From contig NZ_JAEPWM010000001.1 of the NCBI RefSeq assembly GCF_016654015.1, positions 744,001-808,000 of the forward strand: a stretch of 64,000 bases of DNA, read 5' to 3'. A program made the position numbers and the translations under genes. The stretch's first letter is position 1. Each line of letters starts with the position of its first letter. Shown in pieces: positions 31,981 through 39,744 of the stretch. The notes beneath the pieces are model-generated. The model saw only the letters and a program-made list of their open reading frames with translations. It ran no database searches and was not told where the DNA came from. The stretch is from Ramlibacter ginsenosidimutans. Lineage in GTDB: Bacteria; Pseudomonadota; Gammaproteobacteria; Burkholderiales; Burkholderiaceae_C.

Positions 31981-33734
31981 CCGCAGCGCGTCCAGGCGGC
32001 CCGCACTACCGGGTCGAGGCAGCCGATCCGGCCGCCCATCTGTTCCATGTCACCCTGACGGTGCCCCAGCCCCAGGCGGGGCAACGCCTGTCCTTGCCCG
32101 CGTGGATTCCCGGCAGCTACCTGGTGCGCGAGTTCGCGCGCCACCTGCAGCGCCTCGCCGCGCGCCAGGACGGGCGGCCAGTGACGGTGCAGCAGCTCGA
32201 CAAGGCGACCTGGCAGGTCGATTGCGTGCCCTCCAGTCCGCTGGTGCTGACCTACGAGGTCTACGCCTTCGACAACTCGGTGCGCACCGCGTGGCTGGAT
32301 TCCGAGCGCGGCTTCTTCAACGGCACGAGCCTGTGCCTGCGCGTGCATGGGCAAGCGCAGGAGCCGCACGAACTGGAGCTGGTGCCGCCGCGGGCGTATC
32401 CGCATTGGGAAGCGGCCACCGGGCTGGAGCCGCTGAAGACCGGCAAGCGCGGCTTCGGCACCTACCTCGCGCACGACTACGACGAGCTGGTGGACTGCCC
32501 GGTGGAACTGGGCGCCTTCTTCAGCGCGGAGTTCCGCGCCGGCGGCGTGCCGCACCGGCTGGTGATCTCCGGCGCCACCGAGGCGCTGGACACGGACCGG
32601 CTGGTCGCCGACATGCAGAAGATCTGCGAGACGGAAATCCGGTTCTGGCACGAACGCCGCCGGCCGCCGTTCAAGAGCTTCCTGTTCATGCTCAATGCGG
32701 TGGACGACGGCTACGGCGGGCTCGAGCACCGCAACTCCACCGCCCTGATCTGCTCGCGCCGCGACCTGCCGCGCAAGGGCGACGGGCGCATGGGCGAAGG
32801 CTACGTGACGCTGCTGGGCCTGATCAGCCACGAGTACTTCCACACCTGGAACGTGAAGCGCCTGCGGCCGGCGGAGTTCGCGCACTACGACTACCGGCAG
32901 GAGAACTACAGCAACCTGCTCTGGTTCTTCGAGGGCTTCACCAGCTACTACGACGACCTGCTGCTGCGGCGCGCGGGCCTGATCGACGATGCCACCTACC
33001 TGAAGCTGCTGACGAAGACCTGCAACCAGGTCCTGCAGACGCCGGGGCGCGAACTGCAGTCCGTCGCGCAGGCCAGCTTCGACGCCTGGGTGAAGTACTA
33101 CCGCCAGGACGAGAACACCGCCAACGCCACCGTCAGCTACTACACCAAGGGCGCGCTGGTGGCCCTGTGCTTCGACCTGACGCTGCGCCAGGAAGGACAC
33201 GCGAGTCTCGACGACGTGATGCGCGCGCTGTGGCAACGGTGCAAGGCCGGGCCGATGGCCGAAGCGGACTTCACCGGCGTGCTGAAGGAACTCGGCGGCC
33301 GCGCGTTCACGCGCGAGCTGGCGCACTGGGTGCACGGCACCCGCGAGCTGCCGCTGAAGGAACTGCTGGAGCAGCACGGCATCAGCGTGATGGAGGAGCC
33401 CGCGCAACTGCAGCAGCGCCTGGGCGTGCGCGTGAGCGAGACGGCGCAGGGCGTCATGCTGAAGAACGTGCTGCGCGGCGGCAGCGCCGAGCAGGCGGGG
33501 TTCGCCGCCAACGATGAATGGGTCGGCGTGGAAGTCGCCGGCCAGGGCTGGCGCCTGGGCAAGCTCGATGACCTGATGCTCTACGCCGGCACCCATCGCA
33601 AGGTCACCGCGATCGTCTCGCGCGACCGGCGCCTGCTGCGGCTCGAGCTCACGATCCCCAGCGCCGTCACCACCTGGCGCCTGGTCCTGCGCGACCCGAC
33701 GAGGGCGCAGACGTGGTTCGGTCCCCAAGGCTGA
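31977..33734 (+). CDS. M61 family peptidase (glycyl aminopeptidase-like) with PDZ domain
   Basis: This 585-residue protein has the M61 N-terminal beta domain (LSLPAWIPGSYLVREFARH), the zinc-binding HEYFH motif near residue 285 followed by TWNVKRLRP, and a gluzincin-type glutamate downstream. A C-terminal PDZ domain is also present (VMLKNVLRGGSAEQAGFAAN). M61 enzymes such as the Sphingomonas glycyl aminopeptidase remove N-terminal Gly or Ala. No signal peptide is visible from the GTG start at 31977, chosen because it overlaps the dsbC stop as GTGA. Confidence 0.9.
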   Translation: MTAARPGGPHYRVEAADPAAHLFHVTLTVPQPQAGQRLSLPAWIPGSYLVREFARHLQRLAARQDGRPVTVQQLDKATWQVDCVPSSPLVLTYEVYAFDNSVRTAWLDSERGFFNGTSLCLRVHGQAQEPHELELVPPRAYPHWEAATGLEPLKTGKRGFGTYLAHDYDELVDCPVELGAFFSAEFRAGGVPHRLVISGATEALDTDRLVADMQKICETEIRFWHERRRPPFKSFLFMLNAVDDGYGGLEHRNSTALICSRRDLPRKGDGRMGEGYVTLLGLISHEYFHTWNVKRLRPAEFAHYDYRQENYSNLLWFFEGFTSYYDDLLLRRAGLIDDATYLKLLTKTCNQVLQTPGRELQSVAQASFDAWVKYYRQDENTANATVSYYTKGALVALCFDLTLRQEGHASLDDVMRALWQRCKAGPMAEADFTGVLKELGGRAFTRELAHWVHGTRELPLKELLEQHGISVMEEPAQLQQRLGVRVSETAQGVMLKNVLRGGSAEQAGFAANDEWVGVEVAGQGWRLGKLDDLMLYAGTHRKVTAIVSRDRRLLRLELTIPSAVTTWRLVLRDPTRAQTWFGPQG

Positions 33735-34873
33735 AGCTCGCGCTGCTCGCGCTGGCGGTGATCGCCGGCCACCTCGCGGGCCTGGCCTGGTTCTCGCTGC
33801 AGGCCGACCAGGCCTCGGCATTGCGCCTGATGGTGCCGCCCATGTACACGCGCATGCTGCAGCCCGCAGCGCCGCCACCAGTGGTCGCGGCGCCTCCGCA
33901 TGCCGCTCCCTCGAAGCGCGTCACGGCGCTGCGACCGCGACCACCGGCCTCGTCGCCCGAGGAGCGGGCAGCCGAGGCGCGCGCGCGCCGCGAGGCCCGC
34001 GAGCAGGCGGAAGCGCGCGCCGTGGCCGAGGCCCACGCCCGCGCATTGGCGCAAGCCGAAGCGCTGGCCGAGGCGCTCAGGAAGCAGGAGGAAAAGGAGC
34101 GACTCGCCCAGCAGGCGCAGCCGGCTGCATCGGCGGCCTCCGCCGCATCCTCCTCCGCGTCGGCCCCCGCGGCGGAAGTCGCTCAAACCCCCGCGTCCGC
34201 CGCGAGCGCTGCCGCCACCGACACGGCGGCGCTCGATCGCTGGCCGGTGGACACGCGGCTGAACTATGCGCTCACCGGCCAGTACCGCGGGCCCTTGTAC
34301 GGCGATGCGCGCGTGCAGTGGCAGCGCGAAGGCGACCGCTACCAGGTGCGGCTCGAGGCGCGCATCGACATGTTCGGCACCCAGGTCCTCACCAGCCAGG
34401 GGCAGGTGACGGCCGACGGCCTCGAGCCGCACGCCTACGAGGAAACGCGCCCCGGCAAGCGCCGATTCGCGCGCATCGGCGAGCACGCGGTCGAACTGGG
34501 CAACGGCAAGACCGTCGCGAAGCCGCCGGGCGTGCAGGACACGGCCAGCCAGTTCGTGGAGCTGACGCAGCGCTTCGCCACCGGCCGCGAGCCACTCGTC
34601 GTCGGCCACGCGGTCTCGCTATGGCTTGCGCGCCCCGGCGGCGTGGACCTGTGGGAGTACGAGATCGTGGGACGCGAGCTGCTCAGCACCCCGAAGTTCG
34701 GCACGCTGGAGACCTACCACCTGAAGCCGCGGCCGATCACCAGTCCGCGCGGCAACATCAACGTGGAGATGTGGTTCGCGCCCAGCCTGCAGTACCTGCC
34801 GGTGCGCATCAAGCTCACCATGGGGCCGGACACCTGGCTCGATCTGGTGATCGACCATATCGAGCAGCGTTAG
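33713..34873 (+). CDS. DUF3108 domain protein with N-terminal membrane anchor
   Basis: This 386-residue protein starts with one hydrophobic segment (residues 7-27), continues as a Pro/Ala-rich and charged linker with a helical Ala/Glu/Arg region (about residues 70-130), and ends in a DUF3108 domain of about 210 residues that probably forms a beta structure in the periplasm. The N-terminal layout resembles TonB-like anchored proteins. Function is unknown. The GTG start overlaps the M61 gene by 22 bases. The last 33 bases are present again, diverged, at 38391-38423 beyond an accessory island. Confidence 0.83.
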   Translation: MVRSPRLKLALLALAVIAGHLAGLAWFSLQADQASALRLMVPPMYTRMLQPAAPPPVVAAPPHAAPSKRVTALRPRPPASSPEERAAEARARREAREQAEARAVAEAHARALAQAEALAEALRKQEEKERLAQQAQPAASAASAASSSASAPAAEVAQTPASAASAAATDTAALDRWPVDTRLNYALTGQYRGPLYGDARVQWQREGDRYQVRLEARIDMFGTQVLTSQGQVTADGLEPHAYEETRPGKRRFARIGEHAVELGNGKTVAKPPGVQDTASQFVELTQRFATGREPLVVGHAVSLWLARPGGVDLWEYEIVGRELLSTPKFGTLETYHLKPRPITSPRGNINVEMWFAPSLQYLPVRIKLTMGPDTWLDLVIDHIEQR

Positions 34874-35010
34874 TCACTACGGGCTATTGGCCGAGGTCAG
34901 GAGGGACAGAAGAATGGGCTCCCTGGAGACCTCCGGTCAGTGGGCCGCGGGTCGCCGTCGCCACATCGAGTGCCGACGGATCATCGTGACAGTCCATAAA
35001 AGCAGTTCGA
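34874..35010. other. Left end of the first accessory island
   Basis: This 137-base stretch follows the DUF3108 stop codon. I see no gene, hairpin terminator or convincing promoter in it. Its base composition is less GC-rich than the upstream genes, which fits the start of imported DNA. Confidence 0.4.
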
Positions 35011-35250
35011 ATGAGTCGCCAACCCCTTTTCCCGATGACGCGCGATCTTGAATGCTCGATCAAGGGTGCGGCTTCGGCTGGAGAACGCCTCGTCGATCAA
35101 TACGCATCGGCGGAGCCCTTCCCGCACATAGTGATGGACGACTTCCCGGATCCTTCGCTGCTCGAGCGCGGGGCGGCGAAATTGCACGCGTGATCGTCGG
35201 ACCGCGACTCATGGGTCAAAGCGGACCTGCGGACCGGAGAAAAGCATCGT
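35011..35250 (+). pseudogene. Fragment of a 2OG-Fe(II) oxygenase-like gene
   Basis: The frame encodes SAEPFPHIVMDDFPDPSLLE, which resembles the N-terminus of prolyl hydroxylase-like 2-oxoglutarate oxygenases. A TGA at 35191 interrupts it after 60 codons. In the same frame the sequence continues with DRDSWVKADLRTGE, which also looks like the family, and then stops at 35245-35250 region where the glycosyltransferase starts. The HxD iron-binding domain is absent, so this is a truncated relic and not a functional gene. The family call rests on a short match and is tentative. Confidence 0.5.
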
Positions 35251-35252
35251 CC

Positions 35253-36185
35253 ATGCGCCTGGTCGTCGTCACGGTGAACTACTGCTGCGCTGACGCCATT
35301 CTCGAGCGCCTGGAAGAATCTGCGCGCCAGATTGCCGCATGTGACGGCGAATGGTGGATCGTCGATAACCACTCACCCGACAACTCCGCCGAGCGCATCA
35401 GCCGCGCGCTCGCCCGGTATGACAACGTCCACCTGATGCGTGCGGAGGAGAACGGGGGCTTTGGTTTCGGCAACAACCAGGTCATCCATCGCGTTGTCCT
35501 GGGGCAGATCAACGCGGACTACCTTTACTTCCTGAACCCCGATGCGAGTCCGCTGCCCGGCTCGATCGAACAGATGACTGCTTATCTCGACGAACACCCG
35601 GAGGTGGGAATCGTCGGTTCGGGACTCCTCGATGACAAGGGAAACCACACGGACTCGATGTTCCGCTTCCCCTCGTTCTGGAGCGAAGTGGAATCTTCGC
35701 TTGTGCTGGGCCCCGTCTCGAGGCTGCTCAGTCGCCATCGTCAGTCGCTCGGCGCACTCGATCGACCGGGACCGGTCGACTGGGTAGCGGGAACCTCTTT
35801 CATGGTGCGGGCCGAAGTATTCCGGGCGGTCGGCGGTTTCGACGAGGAGTTCTTCTTGTACTGGGAAGAGGTGGAACTGTGCCATCGGGTGAAGAAGGCC
35901 GGATTTGCCGTGCACGCCTTGCCGAGTGCCAAGGTCGCTCACGTCGGCGGAGTTTCGACCGGCATGCACCGACCCGAGCGCCGGATCCCGTCATACTGGC
36001 ATCGATCTCGCAATCTCTATTTCCGCAAGACCCGGAGCGGCGGCCCCCTGCTCTTGCTCAATCTCGTGACCTCGGCTTGCATATTGGCCAGGCGGGCGAA
36101 GGACCTGGTGCGCGGCCGGCCGGCCGAACACCCGCATTTTTTGAGAGACCACCTCAAGCATGCCTTCCAACCCCGCCGCCGATAG
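35253..36185 (+). CDS. Family 2 glycosyltransferase
   Basis: This 310-residue GT2 enzyme starts with VVVTVNYCCADAI and WWIVDNHSPDNSAE. The metal-binding region reads YFLNPDASPLPG in place of a plain DxD, and GGFDEEFFLYWEEVELCHRV is the acceptor/catalytic segment typical of rhamnosyl- and related transferases. It would add a sugar to a surface polysaccharide or lipid. The ATG at 35253 begins directly at the first strand. It overlaps the following PIG-L gene by 26 bases. Codon use is less GC-biased than in flanking core genes, in keeping with import. Confidence 0.88.
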   Translation: MRLVVVTVNYCCADAILERLEESARQIAACDGEWWIVDNHSPDNSAERISRALARYDNVHLMRAEENGGFGFGNNQVIHRVVLGQINADYLYFLNPDASPLPGSIEQMTAYLDEHPEVGIVGSGLLDDKGNHTDSMFRFPSFWSEVESSLVLGPVSRLLSRHRQSLGALDRPGPVDWVAGTSFMVRAEVFRAVGGFDEEFFLYWEEVELCHRVKKAGFAVHALPSAKVAHVGGVSTGMHRPERRIPSYWHRSRNLYFRKTRSGGPLLLLNLVTSACILARRAKDLVRGRPAEHPHFLRDHLKHAFQPRRR

Positions 36186-37638
36186 CCGCCCCTGCGGAAG
36201 TGACGAGGATTGCCTGGTGTATGCGCGCCCTCACTTTAGGCGAGAGGGTGCCAATCTCCATTTCTTCCTGTCCAGCCGCATCTACCGTCGATTGAACGAG
36301 GCGGAGGCTGCCATTTGGGACGCGCTTGGCGCCGGGCCGGCGACGATCGGTGAATTGCACGATCGGGCGGCGGTCAAGGAGATCGCCGAGGACGGGCTCG
36401 TTGAAATTGTCGCCCCCGTCGCCGCCAACGACCGGCGGCGAATCCTGGTCGTCGAGCCGCATTGCGACGATGCAGCCCTATCGATCGGCGCGACCATGTG
36501 GAAATTGCGGGAGCAGGTCGAGTTCCACCTCCTGACGATGGCGAGCCGCAGCAACTACAGCACGGCTTTCCAAATGCATCGCGATTATTTCAACCGCTCC
36601 CGAATCACGGAGATGCGCACCGCCGAGGGCGAGCTATTCATGGCCCACCTTGGTGGAACCTATCATTGCGCCGGCCTCGCCGAGGCGACACTGCGATACA
36701 AGGACAGCGATTGGGACCTCGACTTCTTCAACGCTCATGAAGTCGCCGCAGCCATCTCGAACAACCGACGTGCGCCCTCACGAGTCCTGCAGGAATGGAC
36801 TGCTACGCTGCGCGAGTTCTTGCAGGATCGCTCGTTTGCCGAAATCTGGCTCCCGCTGGGAGCGGGCACGCATTCCGATCATGACCTTGCGCGCGCTGCC
36901 GGACTCCGTGTTGTCATGGATCAGCCAGCTGCAACTGTACGGTTGTACGAAGACGTGCCCTACGGCGTCCATTATCAGGAGCACACCACGCGCATCCTGA
37001 AGCTCCTGGACACGCACGGAGCTAGCCTCTCGCCGTGTCCGGAGGACGTGACTGACGAATTTCCGACCAAGCTCTCCCTGCTCAAGATCTTCGCGTCCCA
37101 GTTCAAGCTTGGTGCGATCCAGCCAGGGGTTGAGAGAGCGTCCGCCGCGGACGGCGGCAGGAAGGTGGAGCGCCTATGGACACTCGACGCTCTCCCCAGC
37201 GAGCTCCCGGAAGACCAGCTCTGGATAGGCGCCCCCGACGTCCAGAAGGCGGCTACTTCGCTGCAGACTTTTCGCACAGGCGCCAGCTCAGAAACGCGCG
37301 TGGCGATTTTTGCCATCAATGCATCCGGTCGCTGGGCTGACGACCTTGTCTTGGTCACGGACCTGTTCCCCCGCGCGAAGTTCGTCGTCTACGCCGGACC
37401 ACGCGTCTTTGCCGAATTCGAAGAAGTCGCGAATCCGGCCGTGGATCTCAACCGGCTGGACGGGCACCCCGCCTCCTGGCTGAAAGCAGCTTTGCGCGAG
37501 GTGGGGACTGGGCACCGAATCGTCATTGCCGGCGAGGCCGGGTCTAAGGTGAAGGCGCTGAAGGCCTTTTGGCAAATTGGCCGAACATTGACGGTGCCGG
37601 CAATGGACAACCTGTTCCAGGCGCTGGCGAGTAGCTGA
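36160..37638 (+). CDS. PIG-L-family deacetylase with N-terminal PqqD-like domain
   Basis: This 492-residue protein appears to have three parts. Residues 15-85 resemble a PqqD-like peptide-chaperone domain (LSSRIYRRLNEAEAAIWDAL, then TIGELHD). Residues 90-300 form a PIG-L/LmbE domain with the zinc motif EPHCDDAALSIG near residue 100 and the later THSDHDLA near residue 235. Residues 340-492 form an alpha/beta domain I do not recognise, with strands AIFAINASG and KFVVYAGP. PIG-L enzymes remove acetyl groups from N-acetylglucosamine-type sugars. With the GT2 gene it probably modifies a glycan, but the PqqD-like part suggests a peptide or carrier partner. Confidence 0.8.
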   Translation: MPSNPAADSRPCGSDEDCLVYARPHFRREGANLHFFLSSRIYRRLNEAEAAIWDALGAGPATIGELHDRAAVKEIAEDGLVEIVAPVAANDRRRILVVEPHCDDAALSIGATMWKLREQVEFHLLTMASRSNYSTAFQMHRDYFNRSRITEMRTAEGELFMAHLGGTYHCAGLAEATLRYKDSDWDLDFFNAHEVAAAISNNRRAPSRVLQEWTATLREFLQDRSFAEIWLPLGAGTHSDHDLARAAGLRVVMDQPAATVRLYEDVPYGVHYQEHTTRILKLLDTHGASLSPCPEDVTDEFPTKLSLLKIFASQFKLGAIQPGVERASAADGGRKVERLWTLDALPSELPEDQLWIGAPDVQKAATSLQTFRTGASSETRVAIFAINASGRWADDLVLVTDLFPRAKFVVYAGPRVFAEFEEVANPAVDLNRLDGHPASWLKAALREVGTGHRIVIAGEAGSKVKALKAFWQIGRTLTVPAMDNLFQALASS

Positions 37639-37829
37639 TCGCTGCTATTCGACAATCGAGAGCGGCGTCCGTCGCGACGGCGGGAAACCGCATCCTCGGC
37701 GAGGCGCGCGCGATCTGGGAGCCAGACAACGCCTGCAGGGGGAGTTCGCGATCCAGGTCGCGTCCGATCGGCGCCGCCGAGGCCCCGCCGGGGCTGACCT
37801 GCACCCTTCCTTCCTACCAGTTGATGGTT
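37639..37829. other. Gap between PIG-L gene and IS66 remnant
   Basis: No convincing gene is visible. Short frames exist on both strands but none resembles a known protein. The stretch may contain the decayed 5' part of the IS66 element, because the tnpB-like reading continues only from about 37830. Confidence 0.3.
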
Positions 37830-38386
37830 AGCGAGGTCCGTCACCCGGGAGAATTGCATGACGACATTGGCCTGTGGCTGCCGGCCCGGCGCCTGAACCA
37901 GGCACGCTTCGTATGGACGAGTGACGGTGCTCCGAGTGTCGGCCTCACGCGCCAGCAGTTCGACACGCTGGTGCTCGGACTGCCGCGGCAGCGCATTGGC
38001 GAAGCCGGCGTGATCTCGCTGCAGTAGCGCAATTGTATCTGCCGATGCCCTGGTGCAGCGCGGATGGCAGCATGTCCCTCCGTGAGCACCGCATACAACA
38101 TCGACGGCCTCGACGCGCATCAGCTGCGCGAACTGGTGGCGCGTCCGCGCGCCCACGTGCTGCACAAACAGACGCTGATTGACACGCTCACGCACGGGAA
38201 CGCGGTCCTCAAGCGCCTGAAGTTCGCGGCCCATCCCGAGCGCTTCACAACGCGGAGCAGCGCAGCCTGCTCAAAGAAGTGCTCGAGGGCGACCTGCAAG
38301 CTGTATCGGAGGAGATCGAGCGCGTCGCTGCACAGGACAAGCCTGCGGGCGAGACGAACAAGCCGAAAGGGCCAGCCTCTGCCCGG
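37830..38386 (+). mobile_element. Degenerate IS66-family remnant (tnpB end and tnpC start)
   Basis: The frame ending at 38027 encodes LWLPARRLNQARFVW and LTRQQFDTLVLGLPRQRIGEAGVI, which is the C-terminus of the IS66 accessory protein TnpB. From about 38080 the N-terminus of the TnpC transposase follows: GLDAHQLRELVARPRAHVL and LTHGNAVLKRLKFAA, then, after frameshifts, LLKEVLEGDLQAVSEEIERV. It breaks off at KGQPLP near 38386. Only pieces of two of the three IS66 genes survive, there are frame errors, and no terminal repeats are recognisable. It is inactive. Confidence 0.8.
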
Positions 38387-38387
38387 T

Positions 38388-38423
38388 GTGGACTTGGTGA
38401 TCGACCACATCGCGCAGCGCTAG
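38388..38423 (+). pseudogene. Duplicated tail of the DUF3108 gene
   Basis: The sequence encodes VDLVIDHIAQR followed by a stop, matching the end of the DUF3108 protein (LDLVIDHIEQR). Over 33 bases (38391-38423 against 34841-34873) 28 are identical. The IS66 remnant is joined directly to it in the same frame. It marks the right border of the island inserted after the DUF3108 gene. Confidence 0.75.
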
Positions 38424-38448: not shown

Positions 38449-39744
38449 CTACAGCTTGCGTTGGTCCACCACCCGCCTGGCCTTCCCCATGCTGCGCTCG
38501 ATGCCGCCGACGGGCCGCAACTCAATGCGCGCGCTCGTGCCGATGTAGACCTTGATCTCGTAGGCGAGCCGCTCGGCCGCCGAACGCACGTCCGCGTGCT
38601 CGTGGTCCAGGCCCGCGCCCGCTTCGACGGCGACGGTGAGCTCGTCCAGCGGGCCCTCGCGCGTGAGGATGCACTGGTAGTGCGGGGCCAGCACGGGCTG
38701 CCTGAGGATCAGCTCCTCGATCTGCGTGGGGAACACGTTCACGCCGCGCACGATCATCATGTCGTCGCTGCGGCCGGTGATCTTCTCCATGCGGCGCATC
38801 GTGCGTGCGGTGCCCGGCAGCAGGCGCGTCAGGTCGCGCGTGCGGTAGCGGATGACGGGCAGCGCCTCCTTCGTCAGGCTGGTGAAGACCAGCTCGCCCA
38901 GCTCGCCGTCGGCGACGGGCGCGCCGGTCTCCGGGTCGACGATCTCGGGATAGAAGTGGTCCTCCCAGATCGTCGGGCCGTCCTTGGTCTCGATGCACTC
39001 GTTGGCAACGCCGGGGCCCATCACCTCCGAGAGCCCGTAGATGTCCACGGCGTCCAGGCCCAGGCGCTGCTCGATCTTCTGGCGCATGTCGTTGGTCCAC
39101 GGCTCGGCGCCGAAGATGCCCAGGCGCAGGCTGCACTCGCGCGGGTCCATGCCCTGCCGTTCCATCTCATCGGCGATGGCCAGCATGTAGCTGGGGGTGA
39201 CCATGATGATGTCGGGCCGGAAGTCGGTGATCAGCTGCACCTGGCGTTCGGTCTGGCCGCCGCCGAAGGGGACCACCGTCAGGCCCAGCTTCTCGGCGCC
39301 GTAGTGGGCGCCGAGGCCGCCGGTGAAAAGGCCGTAGCCGTAGCTCACGTGCACCATGTCGCCGGGACGCGCCCCCGCCGCCCGGATGCTGCGCGCCATC
39401 ACCGCGGACCAGGTCTCGATGTCGTTGCGGGTGTAGCCCACTACGGTGGGCTTGCCCGTGGTGCCGCTGGACGCATGGATGCGCACGCACTGCTCGCGCG
39501 GCACCGCCAGCATGCCGAACGGGTAGGCCTCGCGCAGGTCGTGTTTGGTGGTGAAGGGAAACTTCGCCAGGTCGGCGAGGCTGCTGCAGTCGTCGGGATG
39601 CACGCCGGCAGCGTCGAACTTGCGCCGGTAGACCGGCGAATTCGCATAAGCGTGGTTCAGCGTCTGCTGCAGGCGCTTGAACTGCAGCGCCCGCAGTTCG
39701 TCGACGCTCGCGTTCTCGATAGCCTCCAACGGAAAGCGGTTCAT
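38449..39744 (-). CDS. paaK: Phenylacetate-CoA ligase
   Basis: PaaK activates phenylacetate to phenylacetyl-CoA with ATP, the first step of the aerobic pathway. The 431-residue adenylate-forming enzyme has the P-loop-like SSGTTGKPTVVGYT near residue 93, the motif IFGAEPWTNDMR, YGLSEVMGPGVA and the C-terminal catalytic lysine segment SMGKARRVVD. Length and motifs match the family. The start overlaps the paaI stop (ATGA). Only part of the paa pathway lies here; the epoxidase genes paaABCDE are not in the window. Confidence 0.95.
   Translation of the reverse strand: MNRFPLEAIENASVDELRALQFKRLQQTLNHAYANSPVYRRKFDAAGVHPDDCSSLADLAKFPFTTKHDLREAYPFGMLAVPREQCVRIHASSGTTGKPTVVGYTRNDIETWSAVMARSIRAAGARPGDMVHVSYGYGLFTGGLGAHYGAEKLGLTVVPFGGGQTERQVQLITDFRPDIIMVTPSYMLAIADEMERQGMDPRECSLRLGIFGAEPWTNDMRQKIEQRLGLDAVDIYGLSEVMGPGVANECIETKDGPTIWEDHFYPEIVDPETGAPVADGELGELVFTSLTKEALPVIRYRTRDLTRLLPGTARTMRRMEKITGRSDDMMIVRGVNVFPTQIEELILRQPVLAPHYQCILTREGPLDELTVAVEAGAGLDHEHADVRSAAERLAYEIKVYIGTSARIELRPVGGIERSMGKARRVVDQRKL

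Follow-up and report, generated by a model that had tools for sequence, protein, structure and literature searches.

In a 64,000-nucleotide stretch of the Ramlibacter ginsenosidimutans genome (the window), whose named near relatives are for the most part species of Ramlibacter, sequence comparison identifies positions 34874 to 38387 as inserted DNA that splits a conserved convergent gene pair encoding a DUF3108 protein and a paaK-type phenylacetate-CoA ligase. By the same comparison, the 36 bases that follow this insert are the remnant of a DUF3108 gene end, left in its native place next to paaK. The best reading of this arrangement is either one-sided homologous recombination in the DUF3108 gene combined with an illegitimate joint or a duplication that was later trimmed, both of which are known processes.

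The complete DUF3108 gene (33713 to 34873, forward strand; Pfam PF11306, E 7.7e-13) ends in a C-terminal motif that is kept across the genus. Its last codons (34838 to 34873, LDLVIDHIEQR and stop; tail 1) recur on the same strand as tail 2 (38388 to 38423), a stranded set of the last 12 DUF3108 codons reading VDLVIDHIAQR, stop codon included. The earlier note had reported this repeat as 34841 to 34873 against 38391 to 38423 with 28 of 33 identities, and both its coordinates and its identity hold; extension by one codon, to 34838 to 34873 against 38388 to 38423, gives 29 of 36. Within the 3.6-kb interval separating the DUF3108 gene from paaK, the best other ungapped alignment of the tail scores 20/36, and in the whole 5.3-Mb genome the DUF3108 gene end has only two matching places, the second with an E of 8e-4. 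The repeat is not due to chance. Tail 2 is read within an open reading frame (ORF) that is continuous with remnants of the IS66 gene tnpC, as might be expected if it were unrelated to DUF3108 and were a fortuitous likeness or a natural part of an IS66 protein. This is hardly conceivable given that the real pair scores 29/36 against at most 21/36 in shuffles of the tail, that the tnpC gene of a longer IS66 copy has QPLPVQFPRREI at the place of tail 2, that paaK is only 25 bp away, and that tail 2 matches the conserved DUF3108 C-terminal pattern.

That pattern can be written approximately as [VLI]DL-x-V-[DE]-x-I-E-Q-R, a single variable residue preceding the I, and tail 2 conforms to it save for an A in place of the E. 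The paaK-type gene (38449 to 39744, reverse strand; Pfam PF14535/PF00501) is a conserved convergent neighbor, with proteins 81 to 90% identical in the same place in 42 genus-mates. In each of the 42 genus-mates where a single stretch covers both genes, the two converge; the gap between them is shorter than 300 bp in 32 (including G067 and G025, whose DUF3108 stop is not cleanly read) and longer in the other 10. In the window, 25 bp separate tail 2 from the paaK stop, at the place where the relatives have their DUF3108 end, and this side resembles an empty site. Since tail 2 combines this distance with a fit to the DUF3108 end pattern, we take it to be the native right border and 34874 to 38387 to be inserted. 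The accessory insertion that the earlier note had placed between the two tails is thus confirmed, with tail 2 sitting at the native position. No paaK remnant is supported after tail 1, where the best alignment score of 23 is equaled by 30 of 100 shuffles.

Two of the genus-mates with long gaps (G044 and G055, loci L226/L216) carry unrelated cargo of 9.8 kb and 5.8 kb between these two genes. The former comprises metabolic and ABC transport genes and the latter, going by visual inspection of the translations, porin-like, binding-protein, and two-component genes. These cases indicate that the DUF3108/paaK gap tolerates insertions repeatedly. A second DUF3108 tail was found in none of the ten genus-mates with gaps of 0.6 to 9.8 kb. 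We regard as very doubtful the broader proposal that this gap is repeatedly targeted by insertions in the genus and that the incoming segment brought its own DUF3108 end and so kept the gene whole by an undescribed integrase-free mechanism.

The insert is compositionally heterogeneous: its left part, glycosyltransferase gene, and PIG-L gene have a GC content of 61 to 62%, its pat-like fragment 69%, and its IS66 remnant 65%, with 68 to 72% in the neighboring genes. The left part (34874 to 35254, forward strand, GC 61%) contains a 60-codon broken reading frame at 35012 to 35194 of unproven family, and its match within the genus is a merely trivial one of 37 bp. The name "oxygenase fragment," given to this frame in the earlier note, is unsupported, as it matched no Pfam family. 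It is followed by a glycosyltransferase family 2 (GT2) gene (35255 to 36185, forward strand; Pfam PF00535, E 1.4e-13) of low GC3, whose ORF is open upstream to 35052 but whose Pfam match suits a start near 35255. The end of the GT2 gene overlaps by 26 bp a PIG-L-domain gene (36160 to 37638, forward strand; Pfam PF02585, E 3.9e-8), the product of which has extra N- and C-terminal parts and is possibly a rare fusion. The reading frames of these two genes are open; the remainder of the insert is debris. This debris includes the IS66 material recognized earlier but also a piece that had been missed, namely, a pat-like fragment (37664 to 37797, forward strand) corresponding to the GNAT end of an ADP-forming acyl-CoA synthetase/acetyltransferase and 82% identical to a copy elsewhere in the genome (G000:C1:912076-912209). 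The fragment is degenerate and adjoins the IS66 remnant; the genome's own copy is intact. The IS66 remnant (37855 to 38387, forward strand) comprises the end of tnpB and the first part of tnpC, frameshifted and cut midgene. A longer IS66 copy on a different contig (around G000:C3:110052-110562) shares 87% identity with it. Unlike intact insertion sequences of the IS66 family, the remnant is truncated on both sides and no longer mobile.

At the right border, IS66 similarity continues through CAGCCTCTGCCCGGTG to about 38388 and breaks off midway through tnpC, at the start of tail 2, so that midgene tnpC is fused to the last 12 DUF3108 codons, with the rest of that DUF3108 copy absent. Because the IS66 similarity stops exactly at the start of tail 2, the joint is illegitimate; because such a joint sets the length of the repeat, that length is uninformative on an att site or recombination core or on a target-site duplication. 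The IS66 debris had been described as joined in frame to the second tail. An ORF is indeed open across the joint (38064 to 38423), but the frame is fortuitous, since the tnpC remnant carries two frameshifts that compensate each other (2 bp inserted near 38250, net +1 near 38372), and the residues between them are not those of tnpC.

The structure of this border also bears on two explanations in which the tails are products of a mobile element. Direct repeats surround inserted DNA that contains an IS66 remnant, as they would if a transposon had duplicated its target site. However, target-site duplications of IS66 elements are about 8 bp, against 33 to 36 bp with at least five differences here, and the remnant has lost both IS ends, neither of which lies at either tail; an origin of the tails by target-site duplication is thus exceedingly unlikely. 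When a site-specific recombinase inserts a genomic island at a gene's 3' end, direct repeats of that end with synonymous differences are left behind. On this precedent, the insert could be a decayed island acquired at the DUF3108 3' end, with tail 1 as the island-borne replacement end and tail 2 as the original (attL/attR). The resemblance to tyrosine recombinase islands at protein-coding gene ends extends to a gene end on both sides of the insert and to the synonymous differences between them, and the unrelated cargo that other genus-mates have in the same gap is as expected of such a site. In contrast to those islands, the insert contains no integrase in its ORF list or Pfam matches, tail 2 is bounded on its inner side by the IS66 joint and not by the edge of a defined core, and 0 of the 10 relatives with long gaps, cargo-bearing ones among them, have a second tail, all of which makes a decayed island improbable.

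The test suggested in the earlier note, namely, asking which tail matches the relatives, finds that both do so equally well, the best matches of tail 1 (G011/G030) and of tail 2 (G029/G030) each being 28/33, and 36 bases do not decide the matter. The tails themselves are likewise 28/33 identical, a value reached by 18% of relative pairs, so that they differ as alleles of two species do. Of the five differing bases among the 33, four are synonymous. The fifth gives tail 2 an A in place of an E at a position occupied by E or D in 37/37 relatives, which would fit decay after displacement. Both tails share the codon ATC, rare in the relatives (2/37), and the string VIDH; this hints at a single lineage for both tails, and an in-place duplication fits as well. 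No switch of nearest relative was seen across the insert, the genes to either side being closest to the same relatives, with similar identities. The earlier reading of an insertion with a hybrid border is partly supported: the insertion is confirmed, and recombination between related sequences may have left such a border, since the tails resemble the alleles of two species, but the flanks show no change of nearest relative.

We tentatively favor, at a little under even odds, a single-event entry of the insert by one-sided homologous recombination, a process known as homology-facilitated illegitimate recombination (HFIR). Under this reading, the incoming DNA, from a related bacterium, would have contained a DUF3108 gene followed by the insert. 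On the left side, a homologous crossover would have taken place within or upstream of DUF3108. On the right, a donor end inside an IS66 copy would have been joined illegitimately to the recipient DUF3108 gene just before its last codons, such that the body of the recipient gene was replaced and its tail left behind as tail 2. Decay of tail 2 and of the IS66 piece would have come later. If a related donor carried DUF3108 and then the insert, one event suffices. In favor of this reading we count the convergence of the gene pair in 42/42 genus-mates (with a gap under 300 bp in 32), the 25-bp spacing, the atypical GC content, including the low GC3 of GT2, the absence of the insert from the sampled genus-mates, the illegitimate joint, and the E-to-A change in tail 2, together with tail differences that reach the size of those between species and are mostly synonymous, like those of two functional alleles. 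Three points count against it: no sampled genome has DUF3108 followed by this insert, both tails share the ATC codon and the VIDH string, and the nearest relatives are the same on both sides, which leaves DUF3108 and its upstream region with no visible imported tract.

HFIR, reported from Streptococcus pneumoniae, Acinetobacter baylyi, and Pseudomonas stutzeri, joins foreign DNA to the recipient homologously at one end and illegitimately at the other, with deletion of recipient DNA (PMC3240628 and references therein). The insert shares with it the illegitimate side, the insertion of foreign DNA, and the loss of recipient DNA, the last of these being found with the illegitimate joint at the right border. 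A homologous side is putative: DUF3108 is intact and the tails differ like two alleles, but neither a donor nor a tract of shifted ancestry was found. It differs in that the product alone is seen and the joint is blurred by later decay. Published HFIR joints mostly have 3 to 10 bp of microhomology (PMC3240628); here the stretch of recipient DNA that preceded the joint has been lost.

The alternative of duplication in place followed by trimming is possible but rather unlikely. In it, a longer second DUF3108 copy would have arisen in the lineage around the insertion, for example, by integration of a gene-bearing circle, and this copy would subsequently have been reduced to its last codons by an illegitimate deletion starting within IS66. 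The rare ATC codon and VIDH string common to the tails, the unchanged nearest relative across the insert, and the midgene cut in IS66, which suggests a deletion joint, all agree with it. It needs at least two events, however, and a mostly synonymous difference of species-level size is not required of a nonfunctional copy, although the sample here consists of five changes only.

Searches for the source of the insert returned little. It is absent from the sampled genus-mates, and DUF3108 followed by this insert was found in no sampled genome, which leaves it with no known donor; against a sample of the order, its DNA gave short matches only. Apart from its own genome, relatives of the PIG-L protein were found neither among 401 genomes of the family at E 1e-20 nor among 398 genomes of the phylum at E 1e-15, and none matched on plasmids. 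Weak matches to the PIG-L domain occur in two genus-mates only, and these have no more than part of the domain in common with it.

The insert, with its two sugar chemistry genes and broken fragments, represents a commonplace scar left by gene transfer and not a new kind of element. The general picture is unchanged by this scar between DUF3108 and paaK, whose mechanism belongs to a known type. What the stranded gene end provides is a fixed position for the empty site, with the right border shown to be an illegitimate joint. Were a donor to be found, the locus would exemplify in nature how foreign DNA is taken up through one-sided homology.
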